DNA from: Epilithonimonas hominis
GTDB lineage: Bacteria > Bacteroidota > Bacteroidia > Flavobacteriales > Weeksellaceae
NCBI RefSeq assembly: GCF_003730015.1
Contig: NZ_RJTU01000015.1
Coordinates: forward strand, 1 to 64,000
Direction: 5' to 3'
DNA length: 64,000 nt
Part shown: positions 36,386 through 45,059 of the stretch, one piece after another
Numbering within the stretch: the first letter of the stretch is position 1
Layout: the number at the start of each line of letters is the position of its first letter
The notes under the pieces: generated by a model
What the model saw: only the letters and a program-made list of their open reading frames with translations
The model's database searches: none
What the model was told of the DNA's origin: nothing
Position numbers and translations under genes: made by a program

Positions 36386-36400
36386 TTATTTTCCGATACA
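36386..36400. repeat. Attachment site (left window end of element)
   Basis: TTATTTTCCGATACA, identical to the last 15 bases of mnmE read on the plus strand (45045-45059). The flanks differ, so the identity is exactly 15 bp. This is the far-end copy of the core recombination site. Confidence 0.85.
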
Positions 36401-36438
36401 TAAAGTAACTAATATTGATAATCAATTAGTTACATTTT

Positions 36439-36460
36439 AAGGATACAAATAAGGTACAAT
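36439..36460. repeat. Candidate integrase arm site (left)
   Basis: AAGGATACAAATAAGGTACAAT is nearly the same as the stretch AAAGATACAATAAAGGTACAAA at 44902-44923 near the other end. Both hold GATACAA and GGTACAA, as in lambda-type arm sites, in the same direction. Confidence 0.55.
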
Positions 36461-36581
36461 TTCAGTAAAAAAATAGCAAAATAGACTAATAAAATTGATG
36501 AGGTGTTGGGAAATATTTACAGTACTTCCCGACTAACATATCATTATTAAAAAAAAATGCTTAACCTTTAAATTTAAAAAT

Positions 36582-36887
36582 ATGGAAAATCTACAAAGTT
36601 TATATTTCAAAGATGAAATACAGAAAATTGAACGCTCAGAAATTGATAAGGTAATTAATGAGATTGCAATGAGTTCAGAGATCCTTTACGATATGGAAAC
36701 ATCTACGGCTTTTGGTCTTTCTGCGTGGTTTAAATCTTATGTATTAAGTCCCGAATTTCAGGAATTAGATAGAAAAATACAAAGGGAAGTTTTTGACCAT
36801 TACGAAAATGCAAAATCTATTGTGGAATGCATTAATAAGTTTACTGAAAAACATAGGCTTGGCGACTTATGGGAAAAAGCACAATAA
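36582..36887 (+). CDS. Cargo gene of unknown function
   Basis: A 101-residue protein, predicted soluble and mostly helical, with acidic and charged residues (KDEIQKIERSEIDKVINEIA, QELDRKIQREVFDHYENAKS). No known domain is evident. It is the only plus-strand gene of the element, just inside the attachment site, which is where satellites often carry accessory genes such as phage defence or interference genes. It has its own terminator. The role is unknown. Confidence 0.65.
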   Translation: MENLQSLYFKDEIQKIERSEIDKVINEIAMSSEILYDMETSTAFGLSAWFKSYVLSPEFQELDRKIQREVFDHYENAKSIVECINKFTEKHRLGDLWEKAQ

Positions 36888-36926
36888 AACTTTTTGAAGT
36901 ATATTGAATTATTAGATAATGGTATT

Positions 36927-36956
36927 AAACACTCTGATTTTTTTAGGGTGTTTTTT
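36927..36956 (+). terminator. Terminator of cargo gene
   Basis: AAACACTCT (36927-36935) pairs with AGGGTGTTT (36945-36953) with one G-T pair, then a T run. Confidence 0.65.
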
Positions 36957-37065
36957 ATTTTAGTCAATCTTTTTAACTTTCCTTCATCAATTCTTATCTT
37001 CATAAAAACATCAATTCTTAAATGTATGTACTGAGCGTGAAATTTCGCTGAGTGAACAAAAAAAA

Positions 37066-37084
37066 GGCTGGAATAATTCCAACC
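37066..37084 (-). terminator. Terminator of the element's minus-strand operon
   Basis: GGTTGGAA/TTCCAGCC (one mismatch, 3-nt loop) followed by eight T on the minus strand, about 35 bp after the stop of the gene at 37118. Confidence 0.7.
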
Positions 37085-37117
37085 CACTATAAACATATCA
37101 TTTTAAAATTTTGAAAT

Positions 37118-37765
37118 TTACATAATCTGATTTTTTAAAACAATTGCTTCAATCTCTTTTATCTGTTCAGGCTCTAACTGCTCAATTGTTTCCTGTTTCA
37201 AAATTGTATTATTAATCTGAATGAAGTTATTATTTTGAATAGTCTTTCCTGATCCAGCATTTAAACATCCCATAACATTAAAATAAAGTTTTGCTGCTCC
37301 AATATCCCCATTTACTGCAAATTGAAATACCTTTGCCAATACTTTATCTGTCATAAATACAAACTGCTCTTTTTTTTCTAAATACAAAGAATTACTTCCA
37401 TATTCTTTTAAATGCTTTGTTACCGTCTGTCTGCTCAGTTCAGATTTATTGGCTATTTCTGAAGCCGTTGGCATTCGTCCGTATTCTTGCATTAAATTTG
37501 AAATTGTGGCGGTTATAGTATTATGATTCCGTTCCCAAATTTGATTTTTAGCTACAGGATGTAAAACTTTATCTAACTTATAGAGTAACTTATCATGATC
37601 ATCTAATTTTGTGGTATTCAGTAAATTTGTAAGTCTTTCATTTATTTGCTCTTGCTCGTCTTTTGAAAAATTATTAAAATCTATAATATCCAACTGATCT
37701 TTTTCAAGTAAATCTCCAAATCTTGTTTCAAAATCTGTAAACTTTTGTAAACTATCTTTCTTCAT
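37118..37765 (-). CDS. HTH protein, terminase small subunit-like
   Basis: A 215-residue protein. The centre (about 95-120) is a helix-turn-helix: MPTASEIANKSELSRQTVTKHLKEYG. After it comes KVFQFAVNGDIGAAKLYFNVMG, close to the GD..A.KL...G helix found in phage terminase small subunits of the phBC6A51 type, and a C-terminal NNFIQINNTIL... then IEQLEPEQIKEIEAIVLK, also seen in such proteins. A terminase small subunit in a satellite would redirect helper packaging to satellite DNA. The match is by pattern, not proven. Its start overlaps the stop of the next gene by 4 bp. Confidence 0.6.
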   Translation of the reverse strand: MKKDSLQKFTDFETRFGDLLEKDQLDIIDFNNFSKDEQEQINERLTNLLNTTKLDDHDKLLYKLDKVLHPVAKNQIWERNHNTITATISNLMQEYGRMPTASEIANKSELSRQTVTKHLKEYGSNSLYLEKKEQFVFMTDKVLAKVFQFAVNGDIGAAKLYFNVMGCLNAGSGKTIQNNNFIQINNTILKQETIEQLEPEQIKEIEAIVLKNQIM

Positions 37766-38073
37766 AACAATTGTTTTTTTCTATTTCCAATGTCAGGAAT
37801 GTTTGGAACATTAAAAACTCCTTTTACTTCAATATCGGATTCAACTGCCTTTAGTGTAGGTATAACAAATTTTGAAATATCTATGATGAACTTTAAACGC
37901 TCCTTTGGCTCAAGATCTTCAAAGTCCGCTTTAATCTTCTCTTTGTTACCATTGAGAAAATCAGTATAAAAATCTCTAATTTCTTTTGTCGTATTATTTA
38001 AACTTCCTTTTGGTCGTCCTGCTGGATTCAATACAGTCCCCTTCTTTAATGTTCCGTTTTCGTTTCTCTCCAT
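37762..38073 (-). CDS. DUF5681-like phage-associated protein
   Basis: A 103-residue protein with GTLKKGTVLNPAGRPKGSLNNTT at the start, the GRPKGS-type basic motif of DUF5681 and other proteins encoded near phage terminases. A helical stretch follows (KEIRDFYTDFLNGNKEKIKADFEDLEPKERLKF). It may bind DNA or serve with the HTH protein in packaging. It overlaps the neighbouring gene by 4 bp, so they form a translationally coupled pair. Confidence 0.7.
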   Translation of the reverse strand: MERNENGTLKKGTVLNPAGRPKGSLNNTTKEIRDFYTDFLNGNKEKIKADFEDLEPKERLKFIIDISKFVIPTLKAVESDIEVKGVFNVPNIPDIGNRKKQLL

Positions 38074-38105
38074 TTTTTTGCTATTTATTTATTAGTATTT
38101 CATTT

Positions 38106-39389
38106 TCAATTATTTCTAAATATCCACTTATCACAATCATAGATTATTATTTTTTTTATGCTCATTACATCCAGCAAATCATCTGCATCCTGTTGGTTTA
38201 ATCCTTCCAAATGGAAAAGTATCTGCATTGCATCATTAAAGCTTAATTCTGACTTATCGGCGAAAACTCTGCTGCTTAACTCTCTCAAATCTTCATCATT
38301 GAAATATAAAAGACCAAAGGTTAAACGTTCGGCTTTTGTATAATCAAAATAAGTTTTTGTTTTGCCGTCATATCCGTCACTTCCGTCACTCCTTTCCCTG
38401 AAGTCTCTCCAATCGTGCCGAATAAGAATATCTGCTAAATCATTACCCTGCTCCCGATCTTCAACACTTGCGAACCTCTCCAACAAATCAGAAAAAACAA
38501 ATCCTGTTTGCTTCATTTGTCTTTGAAATTGGTCTGCTTTGGCTCTCCACTCTCTAAAAGTGCTACCATCTTTGGATAGGTCGGGAAATACAAAAACATT
38601 TCTACCCTGTAATATTTTCAATTTGTCAAAAGAAAAACTGCTTTTATTATAAACTGCTAACCAAATCAATTGCTTTTCATCTGCTGGCATTCCAAAATAA
38701 AGACTTCCATAAATAGCGGTTTTTGGTGCTTCTACTAATGCTATCGGATTGTTTGGATAACGCTTCAATAGATGTTCCCCAAATAGGCAAGAAACCCTTT
38801 TATCTTGCTTAATGTAGTCATCTAACCATTTAGGCAAAACATCGTATTTTTTAGCTTCAATAGAATGTAACCAATTGGTATTGGTGGTATGATTATTCTT
38901 ATCAAATTGCTTTACTTGTATGGCTCTTATTCCGTCATTAATATCAATAAACGGAAATGTAATTGCACCTGCTGAGGTTGTTCCCAATCTGTATAATTCA
39001 ATTACTTTTGTGACCTCATCTACATCAAAAGGAAAAGCAACCCTACTTAATAGATTCTGAATGAATGTATTTTTGTCATAGCCTTGCAAAGTCTTTTTGA
39101 AAGTTTCAAAATCAAAGAAAATAGGATCTGATTTTTTGGAACATTTTGCAACATAATTTGATTTTCGCTGAGGTTTATAAGTTGTTGTAAATTGATCCTG
39201 CTGATACTTTTCTGCGTATGGATTCAAATAATAATTGCATTTGCTTTCCCTGTCACATCTTCCAAATTCATAAGGCAAATACTCCCTACTTTCAACATCA
39301 ATAAATCTTACAAAGGTTTTTTTATTGCACTGCGGACAAAGATGTTTTCTGCTTCCTTTCTCTAATTGATATTTGTATTCCGATTCCAT
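38106..39389 (-). CDS. DUF6371 protein with zinc ribbon and Toprim-like fold (primase-like)
   Basis: A 427-residue protein. N-terminal zinc ribbon: LCPQCNKKTFVRFI and FGRCDRESKCNYYLNPY (four Cys). The middle has a Toprim-like arrangement: ALVEAPKTAIYG (acidic start) and NVFVFPDLSKDGSTF (the DxxxD-type site). This matches DUF6371 of Bacteroidetes mobile elements, thought to be primase-like. Near the C-terminal part RSDGSDGYDGKT encodes a 9-bp repeating DNA sequence CCGTCA. It precedes the SF3 helicase gene in replication function and probably primes element replication. Confidence 0.8.
   Translation of the reverse strand: MESEYKYQLEKGSRKHLCPQCNKKTFVRFIDVESREYLPYEFGRCDRESKCNYYLNPYAEKYQQDQFTTTYKPQRKSNYVAKCSKKSDPIFFDFETFKKTLQGYDKNTFIQNLLSRVAFPFDVDEVTKVIELYRLGTTSAGAITFPFIDINDGIRAIQVKQFDKNNHTTNTNWLHSIEAKKYDVLPKWLDDYIKQDKRVSCLFGEHLLKRYPNNPIALVEAPKTAIYGSLYFGMPADEKQLIWLAVYNKSSFSFDKLKILQGRNVFVFPDLSKDGSTFREWRAKADQFQRQMKQTGFVFSDLLERFASVEDREQGNDLADILIRHDWRDFRERSDGSDGYDGKTKTYFDYTKAERLTFGLLYFNDEDLRELSSRVFADKSELSFNDAMQILFHLEGLNQQDADDLLDVMSIKKIIIYDCDKWIFRNN
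38365..38391. repeat. CCGTCA triplet (iteron-like, within the primase-like gene)
   Basis: CCGTCA occurs three times at 9-bp spacing (38365, 38374, 38383), with the second and third followed by CTT/CTC as in the cluster at 39413. It may be partly due to coding for DGSDGYDG. Confidence 0.5.
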
Positions 39390-39410
39390 AAAAAAAAGAT
39401 TATTTTTTTC

Positions 39411-39439
39411 GTGTCACTTCCGTCACTTCCGTCACTTTT
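39411..39439. repeat. GTCACTTCC triplet (iteron-like) between the two replication genes
   Basis: Three copies with 9-bp period (39413, 39422, 39431; the last ends GTCACTTTT). It covers the short gap between the SF3 helicase gene and the primase-like gene, a place where a replication origin would be likely. Confidence 0.6.
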
Positions 39440-41015
39440 CCACATTTACAACCCTCCCGAAATTCTTTTTGATAATCTCAAAACCTGCATTTTTTAGCCT
39501 GTCGCTAAATGTTTTTTGTGAACAGATTCTGTTTCCGAAATTCTCACAATAATACTTATACTCTTTGTACAGATCTTGCAAAGGCATTTCCTTTGAAACC
39601 GATATTTTATAATCATATTCATCAATAAACATCTTTACGCTGTCGCTTTCAGTCTTGTATCGTTCCAGCGTTTCTTTGGCTGCTTTACATTCAGAAAATT
39701 GTTTCTGCTTCAATAATCTATTCAACCCATCCAATACCCAATTGAAAACCCCTGAAAGTTCATTTTTGATAATCTTTTTATGTAATTCTGTGTCCTGATC
39801 TTCCTTCGGTATGGTAACATCAAACGGAATAATTAACCAACGGCGAAAAAATCCGTTATTATGTTCTACATCTTTTGGCAATTCATTACAATTAAAAATA
39901 AATTTGGCGTACTGATTCAATTGCATTGGCTTACCATACGGCAAACGTGCTGGAATTGTCTCCCCTGAAACCATTGCTTTAAATAGTGAAGCTTCAAGCT
40001 TTCCGTTTATTTCACTTGCATAGTTTACCAATTTATTAGAGATCATTGCTCTATAATATCCTGTATCATCAGTAAGCTGTTGCAATGAAAAACTGCTAAC
40101 ATTATCAATCCCCAATAATGCATTGACAATTTCAAAAAATACACTTTTTCCATTTGCTCCCGATCCATACAATACCAATGCAGCTTCCAGCTTTAAAACT
40201 CCCTGCCTTATGAATACATAGCCTAAATATTCTGCTAACACTCTTTGGCGTTCAACATCGGGCAATACTTTGTTTAAATACGCTTCAAACAATGGTGCAT
40301 TTGCTTTTGGATTATATTCAAATGGTAATTGATAGGTTATGAAATCAGATTGCTTAAATGGTCTTAATTTCGTGCCGTTTGCAGATATTTCAAATGTTCC
40401 GTTTTGCAAGTTTATTAGTACTTCGTTTTCATTTACTTCAGGCGTTGGCAAATAAGCATCAGAAAGAAATTGTTTAAATAAGTCTTGCTTAAATTGAAAG
40501 TATCTTGCTTCATACTTTTCAACTCCCATTTTTTCGGCTGCTAATCCTAAAAATTTCTGAAACGTTTCTTTGTCTAATTCTTTCCAAAAAGTACCGTTGT
40601 ATAGATAAATGAAATCCTGATTTTTACACAAACCCCAGCGGTTACATTCTGCTAATCTCAAAACCTCATCAATGGATAATATTAGATAATGTTTTCTTGT
40701 AACCTTTAAACGCTCCAATGATCCTTGCAGCCTTTTCCATTCATCCAAATCAGCTTTAAACTTCTCATCAGTATTAAATGATCCATCAGGATTGATAATT
40801 ATCTGCTCCAGCTTTTGAATTTTTCCCAATATCTCTACAATCTGCGGAAAAGCTATTGTTTGAAAATCCAACGGCTCAACCTGTTCAATAAGATTGGTTA
40901 ATATTTCGTTATGTGGAACGGCTGCACAAACTTTTGTAAGTTCGTTAATATGCTGTTGTATAATTCCAGGATTGCGCAAATCCTCAAAATTGGCATTTAT
41001 ATTATTGCTCATCAT
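39432..41015 (-). CDS. P4-type SF3 helicase/primase (D5_N-like)
   Basis: A 527-residue protein. The N-terminal part resembles D5_N; the helicase core has Walker A in LYGSGANGKSVFFE (about 284), a B-type acidic motif in KLVNYASEING, motif C in KFIFNCNELPKDVE, and the arginine-rich NGFFRRWLIIPF. SF3 helicases replicate small phages, plasmids and P4-like satellites. The gene overlaps the previous one by one base. Together with the primase-like protein it would give the element its own replication. Confidence 0.9.
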   Translation of the reverse strand: MMSNNINANFEDLRNPGIIQQHINELTKVCAAVPHNEILTNLIEQVEPLDFQTIAFPQIVEILGKIQKLEQIIINPDGSFNTDEKFKADLDEWKRLQGSLERLKVTRKHYLILSIDEVLRLAECNRWGLCKNQDFIYLYNGTFWKELDKETFQKFLGLAAEKMGVEKYEARYFQFKQDLFKQFLSDAYLPTPEVNENEVLINLQNGTFEISANGTKLRPFKQSDFITYQLPFEYNPKANAPLFEAYLNKVLPDVERQRVLAEYLGYVFIRQGVLKLEAALVLYGSGANGKSVFFEIVNALLGIDNVSSFSLQQLTDDTGYYRAMISNKLVNYASEINGKLEASLFKAMVSGETIPARLPYGKPMQLNQYAKFIFNCNELPKDVEHNNGFFRRWLIIPFDVTIPKEDQDTELHKKIIKNELSGVFNWVLDGLNRLLKQKQFSECKAAKETLERYKTESDSVKMFIDEYDYKISVSKEMPLQDLYKEYKYYCENFGNRICSQKTFSDRLKNAGFEIIKKNFGRVVNVEK

Positions 41016-41302
41016 TAAGAATTTACGTTGTTAAAAAGTGTTGGATCTGTTGTTAAATAACCTGCTCTGTGTTTGGTTATTCTGCAAAGTCCTTTTCTGA
41101 CTTCCTGAATAGAATTTTGCTCCTTCCATTCTGCAACGTAACGGCAAATATTAGCCCTATCTATACCTGTCTGAACGGAAACCATTTTCATAGTTTTTGG
41201 CTGTGTAGAAAAGGCGTTAAAAACCTTTGTCATTTGTCCGCTTATTTTCGTATCTTTACCCTGTCCTTTAAAAAAATTAGGGTTGTTCAATTTAGATCCC
41301 AT
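41015..41302 (-). CDS. Small winged-helix-like protein
   Basis: A 95-residue protein with a likely helix-turn-helix (about 35-65): TMKMVSVQTGIDRANICRYVAEWKEQNS, followed by a beta wing IQEVRKGLCRITKHRAGYLTT. It shares one base with the SF3 helicase gene and overlaps the upstream HTH gene by 11 bp. It may recognise element sites such as the iterons or regulate the operon. Confidence 0.65.
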   Translation of the reverse strand: MGSKLNNPNFFKGQGKDTKISGQMTKVFNAFSTQPKTMKMVSVQTGIDRANICRYVAEWKEQNSIQEVRKGLCRITKHRAGYLTTDPTLFNNVNS

Positions 41303-41648
41303 TGTTCAACCCTTTTTTATTGTTAGACAAATACGCATCTGCTTCCGCTTCTATTTCAGCAAAAGTTTTCTTTTTACCTTCCTTAATGTAATTGAGTAAT
41401 TCCGTTTGTGAGAAGTACAAACGTTTACCCTGCTTCATACAAGGTAATTCACGTCTTGAAACCTTACTGTAAATAGTAGGTCTTGAAAGTTTTAAAAGTT
41501 CTGCAGCTTCCTGAACCGTCAAAAGTTCATCTACATCGGCTTTTGTTTGCTTGTTAGTTACTGCTGTAAGAATGTTTGCGGTAACCTTATCCACAATACT
41601 ATTAATAAGTATTTCGGGATCAATTGGACTTAAAACTAAATTGTGCAT
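41292..41648 (-). CDS. HTH_17/excisionase-like DNA-binding protein
   Basis: A 118-residue protein with the HTH in about 45-90: LLTVQEAAELLKLSRPTIYSKVSRRELPCMKQGKRLYFSQTELLNYI, the pattern of excisionase-like proteins in Bacteroidetes islands. It precedes the helicase gene set. It is a candidate switch protein for the element, acting as directionality factor or repressor. Confidence 0.8.
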   Translation of the reverse strand: MHNLVLSPIDPEILINSIVDKVTANILTAVTNKQTKADVDELLTVQEAAELLKLSRPTIYSKVSRRELPCMKQGKRLYFSQTELLNYIKEGKKKTFAEIEAEADAYLSNNKKGLNNGI

Positions 41649-41721
41649 AATCCTTTGTTTTTAAATTATGCATCAAAATTATTTGGGGATTTTCGTGGGG
41701 AAATTCAGGGATTTTTCCCCA

Positions 41722-43017
41722 TTATTCCCTGTAAAGTTCCTTTTCTGTTAAATACGCTTTTGTTTTCTTCCAATCTTTTGCTAATGACTTCACTGCATTT
41801 AACCAATCTTGCGAAATGTTTTGTAAATCTTTGATGATAGATACATTATAATTTTTATTCAAATCTTTTACGGCATTATAAAAAGTGTCTGGCTTTATAA
41901 ATTGAATGTTATCTTTTCCGTATTGTTCTATCTCTTTTTTACTCAAACTTCCCTCAATTCTATTTATCGGTATTTGTCTACCATTTGCATACAAATCAAA
42001 AATATAAGCCAATGCATACTCTTTTGCTGTAAATTTTATAGGCTGTTCCTGCTGAGGTGCTGGAATGGATTCTGCTTTTTGATTTTGCTCTTTTACTATT
42101 GTATCTGAATAATTTTTATGATTTGCCATATCATAAAGCTTTTCGTACTCAATCAATCCTAATACATAATTGTAATGAGTTGGCATAAATCCTACTGTTT
42201 TCGTTTTATAATTTTCATATTTGAATGATAACATTAATTTGTGCTTAAAGTCTTTTACTGCGTTTTCAGAAAATATTTTAACCTCATCAATTTCACTTTG
42301 AAAAGTGCTGTTTTCTAACTTTATTTTTTGCTGTTCAAGCATTCTTTTTACTTCGCTATGTCGTTCATCAAAATCTAAATCCTTAACCTCATTTTTTAAG
42401 TAGTCCAAAAAGTCAGAAAATTTCTCAAAATGTAATTCATTTCGATTACTAATTAACTGCATTACGGCTTTTTCTATTCCTTGTTTGTCCAGACTTTCAA
42501 TAGTTACAACATTTGTTTGCAATTTGCTAAATTCATTGAAATCATCATCTTTAAAAAAATCATAAAATTCTTTTAAGGTTCTATCTAACTCAAAGAAAAA
42601 AGATTGTAAATAATAATCAAATTTTGTTTCATTTCTAAAATCCAAATATTTCTGTTTCGCTTCAAAAATTGGCTTCAAATCATCTTCCTTAAAATTTCTT
42701 TGAAGTTCAAACAAATCAGATTTAGCGTTTAAATTTATTATTGGTGTAGAAATATCTGCAATATTTAATTCGATAATTTTTTCTTTTAACGGAAATATTA
42801 TTTCAGCATCAACAATATCAAATTTTTCAGAAATCCTTTTTTGAATTTTATCATATTCAATCTTAGACTTATAATTATCATTAGGTTTTATAGATTTTCT
42901 TGTTTGAAGTAATTCATTTGTTTCATCAATCAAATTTTGTTTGCTCAATAAATAGTCTTTATTTGAGTGTAGAAAATTTATAAAATCAAATAAGTTTTGT
43001 ACGTTTTCTGTTATCAT
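41722..43017 (-). CDS. Large helical protein of unknown function
   Basis: A 431-residue protein, very rich in Lys, Glu, Asn and Ile, with coiled-coil-like stretches (residues about 25-110 and 215-260). The C-terminal third, after QKAESIPAPQQEQP, contains FTAKEYALAYIFDLYANGRQIPINRIEG, SKKEIEQYGKDNIQF and FYNAVKDLNKNYNVSI, suggesting a small helical module. No homology is recognised. It lies between integrase and HTH genes and may be an accessory or regulatory protein of the element. Confidence 0.7.
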   Translation of the reverse strand: MITENVQNLFDFINFLHSNKDYLLSKQNLIDETNELLQTRKSIKPNDNYKSKIEYDKIQKRISEKFDIVDAEIIFPLKEKIIELNIADISTPIINLNAKSDLFELQRNFKEDDLKPIFEAKQKYLDFRNETKFDYYLQSFFFELDRTLKEFYDFFKDDDFNEFSKLQTNVVTIESLDKQGIEKAVMQLISNRNELHFEKFSDFLDYLKNEVKDLDFDERHSEVKRMLEQQKIKLENSTFQSEIDEVKIFSENAVKDFKHKLMLSFKYENYKTKTVGFMPTHYNYVLGLIEYEKLYDMANHKNYSDTIVKEQNQKAESIPAPQQEQPIKFTAKEYALAYIFDLYANGRQIPINRIEGSLSKKEIEQYGKDNIQFIKPDTFYNAVKDLNKNYNVSIIKDLQNISQDWLNAVKSLAKDWKKTKAYLTEKELYRE

Positions 43018-43034
43018 TTTTGTCCTTTAAATAA

Positions 43035-44177
43035 TTATAATTCCAACTTTATCTTATTAGCTGCGGTTCTTTTGGCATCATCTACGATCTTTGCATAAAC
43101 CTGCGTTGTTTTCAAATCTTTATGTCCTAACATTTTAGAAACGGTGTAAATATCCGTACCGTTAAATAATTGAAGCGTTGCGAACGTATGGCGGAAACAA
43201 TGAAAAGTAATATCTTTTGTGATTCCTGCTGCTCCAATCCATTGGGCTAAATGCTTGTTACTGTATGCAGAATATTCCAAACCGTCAAAAACTTTATCTG
43301 CTGGATCTCTTCTTTCTCCACACAAAGAAACTGCCTGATCTGATATTGGTAATGTTTCAATTCCTTTGGTTTTCTTTTGGCTGAAATTAAGGAAATAACC
43401 TTGTCCCTCGATAAAAACAATTTCGCTCCAAACCATCTTTTGAATATCGGAAAACCTCAACCCTGTTAAGGCAGAAAATAAAGCTGCATTCTTTAATAAT
43501 GGATTGTTGCAAGGCGTTTTTACCAACTCATTTAATTCATTTATAGTAAGATATTCCCTGCGAGTTTCAGCGGCTTTTATTGGCTCTATTTTAGCATTAA
43601 GATCCGTTTTTAAAATGCCATCTTTGTACGCTTGTTTTAAGGTTGCCTTAACTTTATTAAAATATGAAACGGCTGAGTTTTGGGAAAGTGTCGCTTTTGT
43701 CCGTTTATTGGCTTTTGTAGTTAGAAGATATTCTTTGAACTCTTCCAAAAATACTTCGCTGAGGTCTGCAAATTTCAAATTTCCACCTGTAAAGTTTTTC
43801 AGATAATTAAGTGCAGAAATCCAATTATCATAATTGGAAGCTTTTCTTTTGTTGGCTAACTTTTCAAAATATTCCACAAAATTAAGTTCGTCTTTCTTTT
43901 TCTGCTTCAATACTTCTTTCTCAAACTCGCTGTAAACTTCGGGCTTATCAAAATAGTTTTGTCTTTTTTGGCGTATTGCTTCGGCTGTAACCAATGTATT
44001 TTTATTGTGATCCTTTTCCGTTTTGGTTTTTGGATTCTCATAAATGTACATTTTCAGAAACTCTCTTCTTGTTTCTTTTCCTGATTCAGAATTGTAAACG
44101 GCTGGATAAAAGTCTAAATATAAACTTTTCCTGTTGTCAGAAATTGTCTTTTGTCTTAATGATACTTTGATTCCCAT
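43035..44177 (-). CDS. Tyrosine recombinase (integrase)
   Basis: A 380-residue integrase with the usual three parts: arm-binding N-terminus, SAM-like core-binding domain (about 110-200), and catalytic domain. The catalytic set is visible: Arg in ALTGLRFSDIQKM, HCFRHTFATLQ (HxxR), LGHKDLKTTQVYAKI (His and the Tyr nucleophile). It should recombine the attachment sites at mnmE. It lies close to the mnmE end of the element, as in many islands. Confidence 0.93.
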   Translation of the reverse strand: MGIKVSLRQKTISDNRKSLYLDFYPAVYNSESGKETRREFLKMYIYENPKTKTEKDHNKNTLVTAEAIRQKRQNYFDKPEVYSEFEKEVLKQKKKDELNFVEYFEKLANKRKASNYDNWISALNYLKNFTGGNLKFADLSEVFLEEFKEYLLTTKANKRTKATLSQNSAVSYFNKVKATLKQAYKDGILKTDLNAKIEPIKAAETRREYLTINELNELVKTPCNNPLLKNAALFSALTGLRFSDIQKMVWSEIVFIEGQGYFLNFSQKKTKGIETLPISDQAVSLCGERRDPADKVFDGLEYSAYSNKHLAQWIGAAGITKDITFHCFRHTFATLQLFNGTDIYTVSKMLGHKDLKTTQVYAKIVDDAKRTAANKIKLEL

Positions 44178-44208
44178 TTGTCCTTTATTACTTCAAATTT
44201 AAAAATTA

Positions 44209-44236
44209 GTGACGGTTGTGACGGTTGTGACGGGTT
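44209..44236. repeat. GTGACGGTT triplet (iteron-like)
   Basis: Three copies at 9-bp period (44209, 44218, 44227), the last being GTGACGGGTT. The core GTGACGG is the inverse complement of the CCGTCAC triplets at 38365 and 39411. Confidence 0.6.
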
Positions 44237-44810
44237 AAAAAACATCTTTTTTTTTCGTATTAAAGACCTCATCAATTAAAACCTTTGGAATGTACACAAA
44301 TTTACCCTGCTTTATCTTTGGAATTTCCTCACGCTGGATAATCTTTTGCAATGCCGATTCCGAAATATTATATTTCTTTTGCGCTTCCGAAATACTGAAA
44401 CATTCCGAAACATCAAAGACCAGCTTTTTAGAATGATCCACCTTTGTACTATTCAATAACAATTCTAAATCCTGCCTTTTTACAATTGTTTTCTTTTCTA
44501 AAATATTACTTGCTTTCAGTTTTCCCGAGTTAATCAATTTATAAACATTTTGCCTTGAACATCCAATCAATCTTGAAACCTGTGTTACATTTAAAAACTC
44601 TTTTTCTTTTAGATCTTCAATTAGCTTAACTTTCTTTTGCTTTTTTACTTCTACTACTTCAATAGCACTATTAATCTTTTCGGCTCGTTTTCGGGCTTTA
44701 TAGGCTTTCTTTGCACAATCATCACTGCAACATCTTGTAACGGTTGTTTTGGCTATGAAATCCTTCCCACAATACTCACAAACTTTTTGAATTGAAATAT
44801 TACTGCTCAT
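44235..44810 (-). CDS. Zinc-finger plus double-HTH element regulator
   Basis: A 191-residue protein in three parts: an N-terminal Cys-rich ribbon (KVCEYCGKDF, TRCCSDDCAKK), a first HTH (about 73-115, FLNVTQVSRLIGCSRQNVYKLINSG), and a second HTH (about 138-180, CFSISEAQKKYNISESALQKII). Both are HTH_17-type, as in excisionase proteins. It is the first gene of the element operon. A TATCTTTG box lies upstream, and a 16-bp palindrome sits between box and start, so it may be autoregulated and control integrase and replication genes. Confidence 0.8.
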   Translation of the reverse strand: MSSNISIQKVCEYCGKDFIAKTTVTRCCSDDCAKKAYKARKRAEKINSAIEVVEVKKQKKVKLIEDLKEKEFLNVTQVSRLIGCSRQNVYKLINSGKLKASNILEKKTIVKRQDLELLLNSTKVDHSKKLVFDVSECFSISEAQKKYNISESALQKIIQREEIPKIKQGKFVYIPKVLIDEVFNTKKKDVF

Positions 44811-44872
44811 TCTGTACGATCTTGTTAAATGTTGTTATAAAGTGTTTAAAAGTGTAAACCAATAAACCAAAA

Positions 44873-44888
44873 AAAATAGTACTATTTT
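44873..44888. promoter_or_regulatory. 16-bp palindrome before the regulator gene
   Basis: AAAATAGTACTATTTT is a perfect palindrome between the -7 box (44901-44908, minus-strand TATCTTTG) and the ATG at 44810. It is a candidate operator of the element's own regulator or a helper-phage antirepressor. Confidence 0.5.
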
Positions 44889-44900
44889 GTACCTCACTTA

Positions 44901-44923
44901 CAAAGATACAATAAAGGTACAAA
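44901..44923. repeat. Candidate integrase arm site (right) and promoter box
   Basis: CAAAGATACAATAAAGGTACAA contains GATACAA and GGTACAA as at 36439-36460. The minus-strand TATCTTTG (44901-44908) inside it is also a TAnnTTTG -7 box, so integrase binding could block the promoter. Confidence 0.5.
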
Positions 44924-45044
44924 TATTTACATAAAATAACAAAGTATTGCAAAATATTACTATCTTTACAGAAATAAAAAAAGCCCTTAAATAAAGGCTT
45001 TATAATAGTTTAGTTTGTTTTGTTAGATTTTTATTTTGTAGCGG

Positions 45045-45059
45045 TTATTTTCCGATACA
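45045..45059. repeat. Attachment site (right window end of element), 3' end of mnmE
   Basis: TTATTTTCCGATACA; on the minus strand this is TGTATCGGAAAATAA, the last codons and stop of mnmE. Identical to 36386-36400. Confidence 0.85.

Follow-up and report, generated by a model that had tools for sequence, protein, structure and literature searches.

Phage satellites have been described mainly in Proteobacteria and Firmicutes. The available part of a 2024 review reports further satellite families in marine and soil bacteria and names Bacteroides only for NBU1 (PMC11389934); the accessible text of PMC12324425 covers other ocean elements, that of PMC12946183 deals with lateral transduction in Bacteroides with no occurrence of "satellite", and "Bacteroid" does not occur in PMC10111431. 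Among the literature matches listed, there was no described satellite family of Bacteroidota, which is not proof of absence, as the de Sousa 2023 survey lay outside their scope. Here, we analyzed a ten-gene element inserted at the 3' end of mnmE in a 64,000-nucleotide stretch of Epilithonimonas hominis (NZ_RJTU01000015.1), hereafter the window, which an earlier note had presented as a candidate satellite of the phage-inducible chromosomal island (PICI) or P4-like type.

Our results suggest that the element is an integrative phage satellite on the backbone of an integrative and mobilizable element (IME), a reading that we regard as fairly probable and that makes it PICI-like in logic, not a proven PICI. 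This satellite logic is supported because no mobilization (mob) gene is recognized in the element, because genes for a terminase small subunit (TerS) or head proteins are found in some related circles, and because excised circles of relatives and origin-like iterons exist. The earlier note had phrased the logic as own replication plus hijacking of helper packaging; own replication is predicted from the helicase and primase genes and the iterons, and packaging by a helper is something that we infer. The element spans positions 36386–45059 between its attachment (att) repeats, i.e., approximately 8.66 kb, and comprises the following features:

36386..36400, no strand: distal att core TTATTTTCCGATACA, the element/chromosome boundary; exact copy of the mnmE 3' end, with the flank alignment ending at 36400
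36582..36887, + strand (the sole gene on it): 101-aa protein of unassigned function, distal end
37118..37765, - strand: 215-aa putative terminase small subunit (TERS), by family profiles and fold model
37762..38073, - strand: 103-aa DUF5681-like protein, sharing 4 bp with the start of the gene for the 215-aa protein
38106..39389, - strand: DUF6371/Zn-ribbon primase-like protein (Pfam DUF6371 3.3e-40, Zn_ribbon_16 1.2e-21)
38365..38390, - strand: another array of the 9-bp repeat, within the gene for the primase
39411..39436, - strand: array of iterons at the junction of the helicase and primase genes, with three repeats of 9 bp (GTGACGGAA type); a candidate origin of replication
39432..41015, - strand: superfamily 3 (SF3) helicase with P4-family C-terminal domain (TIGR01613 2e-53, DUF5906 2e-18, D5_N 2.6e-12)
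41015..41302, - strand: 95-aa winged-helix-like protein (u95), with weak helix-turn-helix (HTH) matches only; conserved in relatives
41292..41648, - strand: HTH_17 excisionase-like regulator (PF12728 3e-15, TIGR01764 4.1e-11)
41722..43017, - strand: 431-aa protein of unassigned function
43035..44177, - strand: tyrosine integrase with Arm-DNA-bind_5 (PF00589, PF13102 and PF17293, all above cut-off)
44208..44233, + strand: 9-bp repeat array upstream of the integrase
44235..44810, - strand: 191-aa zinc-finger and double-HTH regulator (PF12728 5.6e-19, PF13518 8.8e-7)
44887..44922, no strand: integrase arm-type sites TTGTACC and GGTACAA of the proximal arm, with a single distal copy at 36453–36459
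45045..45059, no strand: proximal att core, formed by the final codons of mnmE with its stop (FCIGK*)

All ten open reading frames (ORFs) are in place, and from mnmE onwards they encode the 191-aa regulator, the integrase, the 431-aa protein, the excisionase-like regulator, the 95-aa protein, the SF3 helicase, the DUF6371 primase-like protein and the 103-, 215- and 101-aa proteins. The previously proposed order of integrase, HTH regulators, SF3 helicase and DUF6371 primase-like protein was confirmed, with the amendment that the 191-aa regulator precedes the integrase. Profiles were above cut-off for the integrase and for the helicase, the latter with TIGR01613 ("phage/plasmid primase, P4 family") at 181.2 bits against a cut-off of 108.7. 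The extent of 36582..44810 given at that time holds for the genes and not for the element, whose ends the att repeats place further out. Likewise, the genes for the 103-aa and 215-aa proteins are coupled as proposed, but the labels DUF5681 and TerS both fell below curated thresholds, the 103-aa protein reaching E 0.01 and 16.8 bits against a Pfam DUF5681 cut-off of 27.5. The claim that capsid, tail, large terminase and conjugation genes are lacking was upheld: the ten proteins had no listed match to a relaxase, large-terminase (TerL), portal or tail family in Pfam, PHROG or NCBIfam, and the sole head-type listing was a "minor head protein" profile on u95 at E 0.1.

The int-xis-helicase-DUF6371 backbone of Tn4555-like IMEs is present in the window element. 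On the pBUN2 island, the order is HTH, integrase, further genes, HTH, DUF3987, DUF6371, MobC and relaxase, and the circular 10-kb, Tn4555-like record CP103138 carries HTH, integrase, "transposase", excisionase, AAA ATPase, DUF6371, mobilization protein and CfxA, a set much like that given for Tn4555 in the accessible text of PMC13183296. The window integrase and primase matched CP103138 at 2.8e-63 and 4.9e-39, respectively. These Tn4555-type elements thus share with the window element the order HTH, integrase, excisionase or HTH, AAA or DUF3987 helicase and DUF6371, with other genes in between, whereas directly after the primase they have a mobilization protein or MobC and relaxase, and the window element has the DUF5681-like and 215-aa proteins and no mob gene. 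Among 29 elements with relatives of the 215-aa protein (window included), none had a relaxase, MobC, TerL, portal or major capsid protein gene between the integrase and 2.5 kb past TERS, the family of the 215-aa protein, in a scan with single-sequence phmmer queries that distant mob genes could escape.

A viral collection was scanned with a primase alignment, which gave 112 loci, of which 80 were kept (79 new and L105); with L104, a circle found through TERS, 81 loci were examined. Terminal repeats, i.e., closed IMG/VR circles, were found in 7 of the 79 new loci, and a TerS was recognized in three of these (L192, L200 and L217). In L217 (8.8 kb), a head maturation protease (1.9e-32), a major head protein (2.6e-31) and a TerS (4.9e-28) lie between primase and integrase; in L200 (12.2 kb), the primase is soon followed by a TerS (1.4e-26), and a tape-measure protein (1.1e-9) and an integrase on the other strand are also present; and L192 (4.7 kb) has a TerS (1.1e-9) after the primase, with no integrase recognized. 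A DUF5681-like protein follows the primase in L185, a weaker one is present in L190, and nothing was recognized in the proteins scanned from L194 and L203. The 9.6-kb circle L104 (1–9623) carries a head protein (2.4e-12), a TERS relative, an integrase and a 722-aa protein that is tape-measure-like by eye; a single-protein scan gave no second contig with its head protein, so L104 stands as a single contig.

In 15 of the 81 loci, an integrase gene precedes the primase gene within 7.5 kb and in the same orientation. Five of these (L175, L176, L182, L217 and L219) have packaging, head or tail genes recognized by PHROG profiles, and four (L178, L182, L185 and L190) have DUF5681-like proteins, in a count that leaves out the slot proteins of L174, L184, L199, L211 and L215; L202 has mob-like genes by eye, and the one protein scanned from L194 had no match. 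The linear relatives carry a tape measure and two TerS (L175), a tape measure (L176), TerL and a tape measure (L182), or portal, TerS and TerL (L219). By eye, L202 (5875–12843) runs integrase, 191-aa-type HTH regulator, excisionase, helicase and primase, then MobC-like and relaxase-like genes, beside phage-like ORFs. Membership of a viral collection is not evidence of packaging, since three "Bacteriophage sp." records with this primase (three fetched of six matching) carry mob-like genes; these fecal scaffolds (MT836828, MT836838 and MT836643) have a Tn4555-type look and are probably mislabeled.

The circle L217 (1–8791; IMG/VR 3300012942_000311), with integrase, helicase, DUF6371 primase, head protease, major head protein and TerS, is a candidate capsid-forming satellite, probably of Bacteroidota. 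TerL and portal were not recognized in the four of its proteins scanned against PHROGs, and relatives of its head protein occur in 35 loci including itself, most of them ordinary phage contigs by eye.

We lean slightly towards a Bacteroidota-wide family of elements with a common backbone (integrase, excisionase, helicase, DUF6371 or other primase and, often, 9-bp iterons where the helicase and primase genes meet) and one exchangeable slot after the primase. This slot would be filled either by a relaxase for conjugation, as in Tn4555-like elements, or by phage packaging and morphogenesis genes (TERS, other TerS, head protease and capsid, tape measure, TerL and portal), and the vehicle would be switched by a slot swap. 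The alignment of TERS with the phrog_606 TerS family in hhalign gave a probability of 0.15, which does not show the TerS types in this slot to belong to a single family.

With regard to replication, the GTGACGGNN repeat forms arrays of about three copies at each of the three sites listed above, and six of seven 17-mers at up to three mismatches lie inside the element (0.04 expected in the window). In total, 46 helicase-primase junctions were found, of which 5 were too short and 41 were scored, several of these being near relatives or phage-like. A tandem array was present at 21 of the 41 junctions, each matched by at most 4 of 200 mononucleotide shuffles, compared with 1 of 41, 0 of 40 and 1 of 41 control stretches of the same loci. 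The period was 9 in 19 of the 21 arrays, and the sequences differed. A conserved position with changing sequence fits a predicted initiator-binding origin.

The boundaries of the element were located from several lines of evidence. The 15-bp TTATTTTCCGATACA, which consists of the final mnmE codons with the stop, is present as an exact copy at both ends and has no further copy in the window at up to two mismatches; at least two such matches arose in 10 of 100 shuffles, so it is the position of the copies, not their number, that counts. The same duplication of the mnmE end was found at four other mnmE-adjacent elements (L029, L044, L045 and L055), of which L044 is from the type strain Chryseobacterium shigense DSM 17126, and L081/L030, also at mnmE, has the proximal core only, on a contig that stops about 3.4 kb past TERS. 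The arm sites TTGTACC/GGTACAA keep their distances from the cores, +137 to +143 and −64 to −100, in all nine mnmE-type elements examined; this argument rests on conserved positions, because three copies in the window element alone are within chance (500 shuffles gave a mean of 0.85 and a maximum of 4). In the closest genome (G068), mnmE is 100% and the marR-like neighbor 98% identical to those of the window, a different element with about 27 kb between its cores occupies the same mnmE site, the left flank of the window aligns up to 36400, and the chromosome past the distal core of that element (L163:12555) resumes the window sequence (AAATATGCTTCCTCTAG). The length of about 8.66 kb follows from the att copies, the conserved arms and this alignment end with the same resumption. 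An uninterrupted mnmE-marR site was not seen, as mnmE was not found in the fetched flank of the marR-like gene in ten relatives.

The survey of mnmE proposed in the earlier note, carried out for the genus and family of the window, showed that the site is used by this element family, by a relaxase-bearing element and by other islands. The element in G068 encodes an integrase, an excisionase-like protein, a VapE-type helicase, a Toprim primase, a NikA-like protein and a relaxase (PF03432, 3.7e-20). The mnmE site alone proves nothing, because different vehicles use it; it is also known, as trmE, as the site of the IME SGI1 in the part of PMC8409611 available. The G068 element (L162 624–7942 and L163 12555) marks the site as a hotspot of different vehicles, and a further contig of the same genus at the same att site (L171, 1–14338) carries an integrase, TerL (phrog_2, 4.3e-32), a 127-aa neighbor and, by eye, a long restriction-like gene set. 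One mnmE-type core each, placed between the distal end and the HTH/integrase end in an attP-like manner, was found in L105, L185, L190 and L194, and the last three of these have terminal repeats. The excised circular form is therefore observed in metagenome contigs for relatives, not for the window copy.

The nature of the 215-aa protein was addressed by profiles and by fold, as the earlier note had suggested for 37118–37765, and the outcome was divided: the relatives match a TerS profile, and the window protein itself gave weak signals. The 215-aa protein has an HTH at residues 80–125, helices, a GD..AA..Y motif, a beta hairpin and a C-terminal helix, and in TERS the GD..AA..Y helix and the C-terminal half are conserved beyond the HTH. 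Of 60 members, 42 match the TerS profile phrog_24579 at E <= 0.01 (best 8.9e-7), the window protein not among them; the match of the L104 member (E 0.0066), the only one whose range was inspected, extends past the HTH. Further matches were found to phrog_2538 (10 of 60) and phrog_141 (9 of 60). The AF2 model of the window protein (predicted local distance difference test 88.1, predicted template modeling score 0.65) had a single viral structure match in BFVD by Foldseek at E <= 1e-3, a "DNA-packaging protein small subunit" at 1.4e-4, and its best PDB chains were weak matches to the phage protein phBC6A51 (2ao9; E 0.06–0.15). In hhalign, TERS aligned to the L192/L191 family over the stretch that begins with the recognition helix and takes in the GD..A..Y..G helix (probability 68.5, E 4.6e-5); the L192 member is the protein of that circle with TerS-profile matches (1.1e-9), and the L191 homologue directly precedes a large-terminase-like ORF by eye. 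No TERS member was seen beside TerL in the locus maps or among the 29 TERS elements; in the phage-like L106, with TerL-like and portal-like ORFs by eye, a short TERS relative lies about 6 kb away on the other strand.

Several observations weigh against TERS being a small terminase. Searched alone, the window protein gave only sub-cut-off HTH profiles and TerS phrog_141 at E 0.43 over the HTH part, with no signal beyond the HTH, and phrog_141 is unspecific, matching the excisionase-like protein of the element better (3.9e-4); similarly, the TerS profile phrog_57 matches the 191-aa regulator at 0.07. Of the 60 members, 43 match phrog_3502, a profile without assigned function, and initiator profiles were matched as well, a DnaD-like one by 11 members and an O-like one by 10. 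The VIA structural alignment matches mainly the HTH, in a list where absence of TerS chains is not evidence, and the best solved-structure sequence match with the A2 profile (E 0.013) was to HTH-type domains. Furthermore, the solo copies of TERS described below warn of a possible cellular role. The putative TerS assignment is thus one that the relatives, not the window protein itself, support.

TERS relatives were found in 16 of 296 genomes of the family (E <= 0.001, own included) and in 6 of 395 genomes of the order (1e-8). In a genome collection, 119 stretches matched a pattern, of which 68 loci stood up to confirmation, and every one of these carries a Bacteroidota name; together with L104, five further loci and the window, these make 75 rows. 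In 29 of them, TERS is preceded in the same orientation by the integrase and two or more other core genes; 5 were partial, 40 were solo (a number that includes the circle L104 and rows at contig edges) and one row yielded no TERS. Among the 29 elements, the first gene of at least 200 aa upstream of TERS was the DUF6371 primase in 12, a family designated c16, whose single scanned member has PriCT_2, in 6, and other, mostly unscanned families in 11. In a 60-row tree, whose bootstrap had not settled, 22 of 29 solo rows fell in one Mucilaginibacter-dominated clade (98/94), and element rows came from many families (Weeksellaceae, Flavobacteriaceae, Chitinophagaceae, Hymenobacteraceae, Cytophagaceae, Prolixibacteraceae and others). 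The solo copies give the impression of a distinct lineage that may have been domesticated. The window protein had no match among phage records (the L104 and L099 members gave only chance matches up to E 10) or, as a single query, in the viral collection, and plasmid records matched neither the element DNA (megablast) nor the protein.

Several solo loci (e.g., L049, L050, L052, L053, L068, L086 and L093) have TERS without integrase among ordinary genes. Two metagenome-assembled genomes carry three TERS loci each, Umea3_bin-1751 (L086, L087 and L093) and AM3_bin-0905 (L076, L091 and L092). In Chryseobacterium-type loci (L021, L024, L026, L027 and L085), TERS is often followed by a protein with a type IX secretion sorting domain and a large DUF6443 (Rhs-like) protein, as read from Pfam for L026 and from cluster maps for the others.

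As for the remaining genes, relatives of the 103-aa protein occur in 11 of the 296 family genomes (own included) and in the circular contig L185 (8e-11), and those of the 101-aa protein, without Pfam or PADLOC match, in 4 (own included). No Pfam, NCBIfam or PADLOC family matched the 431-aa protein (PHROGs only at E >= 0.14), which has homologues in L029 and L030, both mnmE-adjacent, and in L022. PADLOC on four window proteins gave only HTH-type matches, for the 191-aa regulator, whose zinc-finger part was read by eye from Cys pairs near the N terminus. The distal cargo gene of the L019/L044 element (L019, 8603–9256) weakly matches the anti-phage profile PD-T4-6 (4e-7).

In the mechanism that we propose, the tyrosine integrase inserts the element into the mnmE 3' end and rebuilds the gene end, as the att repeats show, and the excisionase-like protein together with the integrase would release it as the circle known from relatives. 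The SF3 helicase and the DUF6371 primase are predicted to replicate the element, probably from the junction iteron array. The 215-aa protein, as the putative TerS of the element, would bind a packaging site on its DNA and recruit a large terminase from a phage, either infecting or resident, whose heads would then be filled with element DNA, as with the TerS of Staphylococcus aureus pathogenicity islands (SaPIs); the DUF5681-like protein may be a packaging or regulatory accessory. The own draft genome gave no phrog_2 large-terminase match, a search limited to that terminase family; should a helper exist, it would probably be a phage that infects the cell. The backbone is the one known from mobilizable elements of Bacteroides, Tn4555 among them, and in the slot after the primase packaging-type genes would have replaced mob.

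A different reading of the same backbone is an IME of the Tn4555 type that has lost its relaxase or is mobilized in trans through an origin of transfer, with the 215-aa protein as a DNA-binding regulator or replication initiator. The similarity of integrase and primase to CP103138, the relaxase-bearing element at the identical site in the closest genome and the use of trmE by SGI1 argue for it, as does the 215-aa protein, whose best-supported part is the HTH, whose relatives in part match DnaD-like and O-like initiator profiles, and whose TerS-profile matches extend to other HTH proteins of the element. However, with a recognizable mob gene in none of the 29 TERS elements by single-sequence queries, the loss would be old and widely kept, the slot of some relatives holds recognized TerS or head genes, and the GD..AA..Y helix and C-terminal half are conserved outside the HTH; we consider this reading unlikely.

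Satellites are known for interference with phages. This background, as well as the solo TERS genes among ordinary genes, most of which fall in one clade and suggest cellular use, would suit a stand-alone integrative replicon or defense island that moves rarely, by transformation or vesicles, and in which TERS is a phage-interference protein such as a decoy small terminase. Such an island appears very unlikely, since the solo clade is one branch, element copies extend across many families and closed excised circles exist. Least probable of all is the remnant of an ordinary prophage without its late genes: the primase family does occur in phage-like contigs (L191 and L233, by eye), but other genomes and closed circles hold the same compact set of genes, again with precise att ends, and this recurrence is not one-off decay and largely refutes it.

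If the satellite reading is true, the exchange of conjugation for packaging on a Tn4555-type backbone would link two main classes of hitch-hiking elements and explain the movement of relaxase-free islands of Bacteroidota. The PICI or P4-like membership suggested in the earlier note was not established, as no AlpA, Psu or Sid match was found and the two named backbone records examined are of conjugation type. Like SaPIs and Gram-negative PICIs as characterized in the accessible text of PMC6092414, the window element has an integrase with a specific attachment site, given by the att repeats and conserved arms at mnmE, then regulators, and genes for an SF3 helicase and a primase together with origin-like repeats, the iteron array, all of predicted function. 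Some of them also have terS, for which the gene of the 215-aa protein is the candidate in the window element by virtue of its relatives. The element differs from them in its gene families, in its phylum and in having no AlpA-family match in Pfam among the ten proteins (HTH_17 only; the result covers AlpA, Stl lacking a single profile). With P4-like satellites it has in common the P4-family helicase domain (TIGR01613) and repeats at more than one site as candidate origin, and it differs in its separate DUF6371 primase, its 215-aa TerS-like protein and the lack of a Pfam match to Psu, Sid or Delta at E <= 1 among the ten proteins. The PICMI of Vibrionaceae are likewise small, with excision and replication genes and no capsid-remodeling genes, and differ in integrating next to fis; "terminase" does not occur in the available part of the text of PMC10803314, which describes them. 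Finally, in contrast to the window element, which has no head gene, the related circle L217 resembles the capsid-forming PICIs in that it encodes a head protease, a major head protein and a TerS of its own.

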